In this document: positions 11,499 to 40,636 of the stretch, one piece after another
Position numbering within the stretch: position 1 is the first letter of the stretch
Layout: each line of letters starts with the position of its first letter
Assembly: GCA_902780525.1 (NCBI GenBank)
Contig: CACZFL010000005.1
Span: 124,001-188,000, forward strand
Reading direction: 5' to 3'
Source: an uncultured bacterium
GTDB taxonomy: Bacteria > Cyanobacteriota > Vampirovibrionia > Gastranaerophilales > Gastranaerophilaceae
DNA: 64,000 bases
Position numbers and translations under genes: made by a program
The notes under the pieces: model-generated
Seen by the model: only the letters and a program-made list of their open reading frames with translations
Databases searched by the model: none
What the model was told of the DNA's origin: nothing

Positions 11499-11640
11499 AT
11501 GGGATATTTTTTGTAAACAAATGTAAAATTTTATTTAAAAAAACTAAAGTTTTTTAAAATTATGTCGATAAAGAGAATATCCAGGTTGATTAGTTTATAT
11601 GAATTCAAATTAACGAAATTTTTGTTAGGAGTTCTCTTCA

Positions 11641-12393
11641 ATGGTCGATTATGCATCCGGTTCACAAATGTATTCAAATAATGGTCTATATGATTTTTCA
11701 GCAGAAAGCAACAGACAGGTTGTTGAAAAATTTGTGCAAAGCCTCCAATCAGAAGGTGATTTATCCGATGCTGAAATTAGATTTTTATCACAAAGTAAAG
11801 AGAAAAGATCTTCAGCAAAATTTCTGGAACAAATTTTTTCTACTGAGCTTACAATAGCTAATTATGAAGAATTATTCTGCCTGAAGGATTATACGGCTTT
11901 TGGAGGTACAATAAATCCTGAGCAGGCTGTTCGTAATATAAGATACAAAGACAGTATCGAAAATATCGTTGCAACTGTTCAGATTGATACTCTAAGCAAA
12001 AAAATCAGGGTTCAGAATCTTGGACACATTTTTCCTGTACTCGAGTGCTTCACTCCGTATCAGGTTGGTATGAAAATAAATAATTTGGCAAAATATAATA
12101 ACTGGACCACAGAAGACGGCGGAAATAACCTTTTCAACGGAAATCACGAAGTACGTTATAAAGATGAAAACGGTAACGTTATGGCAGCTGTTATTGCGAA
12201 AGAAGACGGAACTATTGAAACAATTGCCGAATATGAATATAAATCCGGATATCGCTCAAAGATGGTATTAACAAACTGTTATGGCAATTCTATTGTTGCT
12301 TACAATAAATTAAAACAAGTCTGTCAAACAGTTCGGGTAGATATTGACAATGACGGTACCATTGTAGAAATAACGAAAGTATATTCTGATTAG
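11641..12393 (+). CDS. Lineage-specific hypothetical protein
   Basis: A 250-residue soluble protein not assigned to any family. Start ATG follows TAGGAG. The first 40 residues are Ser/Asn-rich without a signal peptide. The second half has alternating strands with short Gly/Asn turns (YKDENGNVM, DIDNDGTIV), which looks like a beta-repeat or RHS-like fold but is too weak to name. It is followed by another lineage-specific gene on the same strand. Confidence 0.65.
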   Translation: MVDYASGSQMYSNNGLYDFSAESNRQVVEKFVQSLQSEGDLSDAEIRFLSQSKEKRSSAKFLEQIFSTELTIANYEELFCLKDYTAFGGTINPEQAVRNIRYKDSIENIVATVQIDTLSKKIRVQNLGHIFPVLECFTPYQVGMKINNLAKYNNWTTEDGGNNLFNGNHEVRYKDENGNVMAAVIAKEDGTIETIAEYEYKSGYRSKMVLTNCYGNSIVAYNKLKQVCQTVRVDIDNDGTIVEITKVYSD

Positions 12394-39478: not shown

Positions 39479-40447
39479 ATGAGCAGTTATTTAGACAATT
39501 TTTTAGGCGGCATGGCGTTCGGAATGTTAGCAAACAATCCGTTCTTCAGGGGCTGTTTTGGTTTTGGAATGTATCCTGTATATTATAACAGAGTTGATTT
39601 TGGCGGTTTTGCAAATCCATTTCCGAGTATTTTTGGCAATATGGGGTATATGGGTATGGGGCTAAGCGCTCAACCAATGCCGACAACTTTTGCCAACACA
39701 CCTTTTCCGACTGTAGATTTTACCGAAGTTGGTGAATATATTTTGGATACATACACCAATCCGGATTCTGAATATAACAAAAAAATGAGGGAAATGTATA
39801 AGGAATACGAAAAACAAAACAAAAATTCAAACACATCCTGCTTTCAGCAAAACTGGTTTTCAATGTTTAATATGCCCGGGATGACATTTCCTTGGTTTGG
39901 AGGGCAGATAAAGACTGATAAAACTGATAAAAATGAGAAAGCAGATAAAGATACAAAAATAACAAATCGGTATGACGATAAAAGGTTCAATAAATTTTTA
40001 TCCATAGTATTAGATCGTGAAGGCGGATATTCTAACAGTAAAATCGACAGAGGCGGAGAAACCTTAAAAGGAGTTACGCATACAACGTATGATGAGTACC
40101 GCAAATCAAAAGGTTTGACAACTCAGAGTGTAACAAAAATGACTGATGATGAAATGCAGGAAATTTATTATGAAAACTTCTATAAAGCAAGCGGCGCAGA
40201 TAAAATATCCGATAAAAAACTTGCACTATATGTATTTGATACAGCAGTAAATTTGGGTGTAAAAGTAGCAAAAGATTTTCTGGATAAATGCGGTGGTGAC
40301 AGAAATAAATTTGAACAATTAAGAAAAAACAGATATAAGAAAATTATCGAAAACGATAAAGACCAGAAAGCACACGAAAAAGGCTGGAATAGCAGAATGA
40401 TTGCAATAAAAGATGCTGCGGATAATCAATTAAATACCATTGCATAA
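39479..40447 (+). CDS. GH108-type muramidase with Phe/Gly/Met-rich N-terminus
   Basis: A 322-residue protein. The C-terminal half (about 168-315) matches the GH108 N-acetylmuramidase pattern: FLSIVLDREGGYSN with the catalytic Glu (about 181), GGETLKGVTHTTYDEYR, then the peptidoglycan-binding tail RYKKIIENDKDQKAHEKGW. The N-terminal 125 residues are rich in Phe, Gly, Met and Pro (GGMAFGMLANNPFFRGCFGFGM) with no Sec signal. A charged linker (KTDKTDKNEKADKD) joins them. Phage lysozymes and flagellar or secretion-associated muramidases share the catalytic fold; its export route is unknown. Confidence 0.8.
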   Translation: MSSYLDNFLGGMAFGMLANNPFFRGCFGFGMYPVYYNRVDFGGFANPFPSIFGNMGYMGMGLSAQPMPTTFANTPFPTVDFTEVGEYILDTYTNPDSEYNKKMREMYKEYEKQNKNSNTSCFQQNWFSMFNMPGMTFPWFGGQIKTDKTDKNEKADKDTKITNRYDDKRFNKFLSIVLDREGGYSNSKIDRGGETLKGVTHTTYDEYRKSKGLTTQSVTKMTDDEMQEIYYENFYKASGADKISDKKLALYVFDTAVNLGVKVAKDFLDKCGGDRNKFEQLRKNRYKKIIENDKDQKAHEKGWNSRMIAIKDAADNQLNTIA

Positions 40448-40560
40448 AAAAAAGCCGTTTCTTAGAGAACGGCTACCAGACTTGGGGAGGAGGTATGAAA
40501 AACCTCTCTGAGGCTTTCCATACTATCCTTATCGGTATAAATTTATTTTTCTTAAGGATA
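40446..40560 (-). ncRNA. Candidate small RNA with C-rich anti-SD segment
   Basis: Minus-strand order, 5' to 3': stem TATCCTTA/TAAGGATA (40560-40524); a 14-pair stem GTATGGAAAGCCTC/GAGGTTTTTCATAC with loop AGA (40523-40493); an unpaired CTCCTCCCCAAGTCTGGT segment; and an intrinsic terminator AGCCGTT/AACGGCT (40474-40453) followed by eight T. The middle helix has two G-U pairs on this strand that would be A-C mismatches on the other. The free segment complements Shine-Dalgarno sequences. Two stems around a CU-rich linker recall cyanobacterial Yfr1 in plan, not in sequence. It may come from its own promoter or from processing of the rlmH transcript. Confidence 0.5.
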
Positions 40561-40636
40561 TTTAACAAAAATACTACATATAGTGGAGGTAAAACTAAAC
40601 ACACGAAATTATATATTCGGTATATTTATTTACCCA

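Follow-up and report, generated by a model that had tools for sequence, protein, structure and literature searches.

The window, a stretch of 64,000 nucleotides from an uncultured member of the Gastranaerophilales, the lineage sister to the cyanobacteria that the initial annotation had supposed, carries on its minus strand a predicted small RNA gene of ~79 nt (40446..40524). Its minus-strand sequence, AGTATGGAAAGCCTCAGAGAGGTTTTTCATACCTCCTCCCCAAGTCTGGTAGCCGTTCTCTAAGAAACGGCTTTTTTTT, runs from 40524 to 40446; the gene was delimited by a covariance model match (G000:C5:164446-164524) and by alignment A1, with a 5' end placed from the promoter and from the start of conservation.

Parts and predicted fold of the RNA

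Three parts succeed one another on the minus strand. The 5' hairpin (40493..40523) comprises 14 bp and a 3-nt loop, and its sequence differs between genera while the pairing is kept. It is followed by a single-stranded linker of 19 nt, CUCCUCCCCAAGUCUGGUA (40474..40492), which has invariant columns in alignments A1 and A4 and in the loci of families f9 and f15, and by an intrinsic terminator (40446..40473) made of a GCCGTT/AACGGC hairpin (40473-40454) and eight T (40453-40446). The linker contains the C-rich CTCCTCCCC (40492-40484) and forms, together with the preceding AC, the near-invariant core ACCUCCUCCCCAAGUC. This core includes ACCUCCU, the anti-Shine-Dalgarno (anti-SD) end of the 16S rRNA 3' tail.

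The initial annotation had described three abutting hairpins, a C-rich segment and a terminator with eight T, all of which are present. While the middle hairpin and the terminator stand as parts of the RNA, the outer 5' hairpin (TATCCTTA 40560-40553 / TAAGGATA 40531-40524) lacks conservation within the genus, where its median energy is -1.2 kcal/mol; its occurrence in the window is explained by the fact that this stretch is a conserved sigma28-type promoter. The proposed strand asymmetry of the middle helix (40523-40493) was borne out: on the minus strand it forms 14 continuous pairs (-16.8 kcal/mol), whereas on the plus strand, where two G-U pairs become A-C, it is interrupted (-8.5 kcal/mol). 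Compared with dinucleotide shuffles, folding gave a z of -4.94 (0/200) for the minus strand and -3.34 for the plus strand. Between the 5' hairpin and the terminator, the SD-complementary, CU-rich linker is single-stranded in the fold prediction, as had been claimed, with an unpaired probability of 0.95-1.0 for its CUCCUCC part and with the anti-SD CCUCCU unpaired. The sole contact of the linker is a weak local CCA/UGG pairing which a common G-to-A variant breaks.

Distribution, selection and neighbouring genes

A DNA search recovered the RNA in 63 of the 65 genomes of the genus, including all 42 of high quality. According to a first covariance model, built from 57 distinct genus sequences, 221 of the 239 family genomes carry it (40 of 41 genera), and according to a second one so do 144 of the 146 genomes sampled from the order Gastranaerophilales, across all 40 genera and 7 families; these models give only approximate E-values, and alignments A2-A4 were fitted to the model structure. 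Outside family f1, genomes carry one to six copies, some in tandem. Elsewhere in the class, this second model returned just four weak matches, all in family f9, where the core reads AACCTCCTCCCCAA, the terminator has another sequence and three of the four loci possess a sigma28-type promoter. A third model, trained with these four loci, added four further f9 genomes as well as three of family f15, whose matches are independent of its training. Two further families of the class (f9 and f15) have the same core and promoter as the order. Among ~105 genomes from the phylum's other classes there was only one weak match (G486, L323), a chance terminator without the core. Small RNAs are usually conserved no further than the genus or the family.

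A core scan of GTDB genomes retrieved records mostly labelled Candidatus Gastranaerophilales or uncultured. The RNA is also present in records labelled Fusobacterium, Acinetobacter, Brachyspira, Muribaculaceae or Clostridia (L223, L230, L197, L236, L167), which are probably mislabelled Gastranaerophilales genomes. In environmental families, tandem copies lie 160-360 nt apart (L287 in G307:C16, L288 and L296), and one copy of each pair in L288 and L296 has a variant core, TCTCTTCCCCAAGTCTGG, and almost no 5' hairpin; such copies are possible sub-functionalised paralogues.

That a minus-strand small RNA is under selection, as the initial annotation had argued from the helix, is settled by this conservation in genus, family and order, with a layout beyond chance. 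At the genus level the stems hardly vary and give little information on pairing. At the order and class levels, the sequence of the 5' hairpin is replaced wholesale while its pairing is kept, with changes on both sides at 16 of 18 pairs. Cells with two-sided pair changes numbered 211 against 68 in shuffles, slid controls collapsed, and covariation, present in both helices, reached 0.448 against 0.163. The linker behaves in the opposite way and shows hardly any change. The check proposed in the initial annotation, a covariance search for compensatory stem changes with an invariant CCUCC linker, was thereby borne out. The RNA structure is under selection.

A coding function was also considered. 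An ATG at 40521 opens 19 codons across the core in the window, and an open frame occurs in many copies, as a small peptide gene would have it. However, the frame entering the core varies (0, 1 and 2 in 85, 31 and 57 of 225 copies, respectively, and none in 52), hairpin length varies freely, and the ATG, at about nucleotide 4 of the RNA, has no SD before it. With no conserved frame through the core among the 225 copies, a peptide gene was rejected as very unlikely.

In the window, rlmH is encoded on the same strand and the RNA follows it after ~112 nt, a placement to which the initial annotation had drawn attention. It could suggest that the locus is no more than a chance-conserved terminator region belonging to rlmH or to other genes upstream. 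Such an origin is extremely improbable: rlmH is near the RNA in only 3 of 30 genus loci, the core is conserved far beyond the needs of a terminator, and the RNA has its own promoter motif. Flanking genes change between loci while the RNA persists, and this wide conservation amid varied neighbours refutes an rlmH 3' UTR as a general explanation; the synteny with rlmH is incidental. A GH108-type muramidase gene (39479-40447, +) is convergent with the RNA, and 15 of the 30 genus loci examined have similar genes nearby, far more than have rlmH.

A sigma28-type promoter motif and an upstream palindrome

Across the RNA family, the 5' hairpin is directly preceded by the motif TAAAG-N14-GCCGATA (consensus of 225 copies). 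The corresponding elements in the window, both on the minus strand, are a -35 element TTAAG (40551..40555; consensus TAAAG) and a -10 element ACCGATAA (40529..40536), which together read TTAAG-N16-CGATA and match at 9 of 10 positions. Among the 225 distinct copies, 84% match TAAAG-N16-CGATA at at least 8 of 10 positions, compared with 9% for the upstream control and 18% for shuffled sequences, and the motif occupies a fixed place, ending at a median of 36 nt upstream of the core. Sigma28 promoters have the consensus TAAAGTTT-N11-GCCGATAA in E. coli and, for sigma-D of B. subtilis, TAAA-N15-GCCGATAT; several environmental copies of the RNA family show a textbook match.

The source genome encodes a sigma28 of the FliA/WhiG type (G000:C3:169970-170632; 233.5 bits for a curated cut-off of 189.6) as well as flagellar export genes including FlhA. 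In a class sample of 97 genomes, sigma28 scored above its cut-off in all 39 genomes carrying the RNA, and the RNA was found in none of the 27 genomes without sigma28, a co-occurrence count which is confounded by phylogeny. Families f10-f12 and f14 have sigma28 and the RNA was not detected in them, so that any dependence could at best run in one direction. Flagella are a feature of published Melainabacteria genomes and are lacking in cyanobacteria (PMC3787301). Promoter motif and sigma gene together point to transcription of the RNA by the sigma28 holoenzyme, and we infer from sequence a stand-alone, trans-acting RNA.

Two more sigma28-type promoter matches are found in the window, at 11545 (+) and 17481 (-), where TAAAG-N16-CGATA is matched at 10/10 and 9/10 positions, respectively; the former lies 96 nt upstream of an ORF of 250 aa (11641-12393). 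At another locus (L375:14556, -), a 9/10 match stands ~60 nt before the first ORF of a fliF/fliH/flhA-like cluster. Nearly all relatives have two FlhA-type export gates per genome (for instance L374:8666-10759 and L375:8480-10564, both on the minus strand), of which one is above the FlhA cut-off and the other, located beside FliF and FliH genes, ~70 bits below it; this second gate may serve a divergent flagellum or another export apparatus.

In family f1, a palindrome of ~24 bp, AATCTMCTMCAWWTRGAKGAKATT, is located 70-93 nt upstream of the core at 133 copies (e.g., L082, L102 and L271). The window has a degenerate copy of this element upstream of the promoter (40567..40593, minus strand, boundaries approximate). 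The palindrome is probably the binding site of a dedicated dimeric regulator. Away from the RNA genes, ~1.7 Mb contained one credible match, apparently intragenic, and a regulon-wide site was set aside on this ground.

Relation to known small RNAs and possible function

The architecture resembles that of Yfr1, a cyanobacterial RNA with a 5' hairpin, a CU-rich stretch of 16-20 unpaired nt that holds an ultraconserved core, and a terminator, which is nearly universal in its class (PMC2190773). The resemblance, already noticed in the initial annotation, holds for the 5' hairpin, the 19-nt unpaired CU-rich linker and the terminator, with covariation in both helices; both RNAs belong to the same phylum, each nearly universal in its group. 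A Yfr1 orthologue diverged in sequence in this non-photosynthetic sister class could have this architecture and this phylum, but it is very unlikely. The undecamer ACUCCUCACAC, the core of Yfr1, occurs in no aligned copy, the core here being ACCUCCUCCCCAAGUC, and homology was rejected on this basis. An Rfam search of the window and 15 further loci, at gathering and relaxed thresholds (E up to 5), gave no credible match, an outcome telling with respect to Yfr1 only if Rfam 15 holds a Yfr1 model. The lone match among other classes of the phylum is not Yfr1 either, and no guaB/trxA synteny was noticed in a general survey of the neighbouring genes. With the defining undecamer absent and no Rfam model matching, the RNA was not filed under Yfr1, in agreement with the earlier view that the sequence is not Yfr1. 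The two also differ in length (54-69 nt for Yfr1, ~79 nt here), apparently in neighbourhood (guaB-yfr1-trxA synteny as opposed to varying neighbours) and in control: Yfr1 expression is nearly constant (PMC6778093) and these papers (PMC2190773, PMC6778093) describe no sigma28-type promoter for it, in contrast to the RNA studied here.

In its control, the RNA is closer to CjNC1/CjNC4 (also CJnc10/CJnc170, FlmR) of Campylobacter, which are short, sigma28-dependent, terminator-ended and multicopy, and whose predicted pairing partners are the leaders and ribosome sites of further flagellar genes (PMC4626219, PMC11187230). This likeness is at the level of the motif, through the sigma28 promoter motif in 84% of the 225 copies and the sigma28 gene. 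CjNC1/CjNC4 belong to thermophilic Campylobacter, their predicted targets are sigma54-dependent genes, and, in a comparison by description and not by sequence, they measure <50 nt and are described as a terminator stem-loop alone. Streptococcal csRNAs place an unpaired, SD-complementary region (complementary also to the start codon) between two stem-loops, occur several times per genome in some species and have one dedicated regulator; ribosome-site blocking has been proposed for them (PMC3091779), as it has for CjNC1/CjNC4. Compared likewise by description, csRNAs are under CiaR control as opposed to a sigma28-type promoter, and the CAU corresponding to their anti-AUG is present before CCUCCU in only part of the family studied here, inside the stem. 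Sigma28-dependent small RNAs of E. coli are reported to act on the flagellar programme and to be UTR-derived (PMC10578931), unlike the free-standing gene with its own promoter described here.

RsaE/RoxS and other small RNAs of Firmicutes with C-rich motifs direct a C-rich single-stranded seed against G-rich ribosome sites. Their structure and lineage differ from those of the present RNA, and they are not known to be under sigma28 control. To our knowledge, no described family joins a Yfr1-like layout with a CjNC1/CjNC4-like control, and a literature search on small or non-coding RNAs in Gastranaerophilales or Melainabacteria found nothing relevant.

Computation establishes the structure, conservation, distribution and promoter motif of the RNA and the presence of sigma28, and the reading that we favour, with somewhat better than even confidence, is that of a sigma28-dependent trans-acting small RNA which blocks ribosome sites and ties flagellum assembly to translation. 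RNA polymerase with the FliA/WhiG-type sigma28 would make the RNA, whose 5' hairpin and terminator would protect it and keep the near-invariant C-rich linker open. The linker would then pair with the G-rich ribosome-binding sites of some mRNAs and block their translation, the simplest mechanism suggested by the anatomy of the RNA and by analogy. Sigma28 is normally active once the flagellar basal body is complete, and for this reason the RNA would couple flagellum assembly to the repression of other mRNAs.

Neither of the two scans made provided a convincing target. Perfect GGGGAGG-N3-10-ATG sites in 13 genomes included no gene recurring between genomes among the 20 sites examined, and GGGGAGG start sites showed no enrichment attributable to a conserved gene. 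Duplex energies computed for the start sites of the window and three other stretches showed no pairing advantage of two flagellar clusters over other genes. The near-invariant stretch of ~16 nt is longer than SD blocking requires, which makes a protein or a single conserved partner RNA possible. A sigma28-driven small RNA whose core binds such a partner, as a sponge in the case of RNA, in place of many ribosome-binding sites would account for a core invariance extending beyond any SD complement and fits with the failure of these scans to reveal a target with an extended match. It also has a precedent: Yfr1 and Yfr2 carry nearly complementary conserved motifs, Yfr2 being a sponge for Yfr1 (PMC6778093). 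The exact anti-SD heptamer ACCUCCU in the core is, however, best suited to mRNA leaders, and we consider a protein or sponge partner a rather unlikely alternative to ribosome-site blocking.

On the broadest view, which we put forward tentatively and hold to be somewhat less probable than not, the RNA would represent an undescribed small-RNA family, ancestral to much of the Vampirovibrionia, in which the flagellar checkpoint sigma drives synthesis of an RNA imitating the 3' tail of 16S rRNA, and this mimic represses the translation of a set of mRNAs. Its Yfr1 architecture would have arisen independently or have been re-wired after inheritance, and the same promoter would, in the gut clade, also answer to a second, dimeric regulator.

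A single-stranded run of ~16 nt hardly changes throughout an order and into other families of its class, in bacteria for which most knowledge comes from metagenome genomes. The RNA is a concrete candidate for post-transcriptional control, linked to flagella, among the non-photosynthetic sisters of cyanobacteria, and Yfr1 lends itself naturally to comparison with it. Existing metatranscriptomes could serve as a test, since the covariance models detect the RNA in almost all genomes of the order. If true, the proposed mechanism would connect the assembly of the flagellum with access to ribosomes across the whole class.
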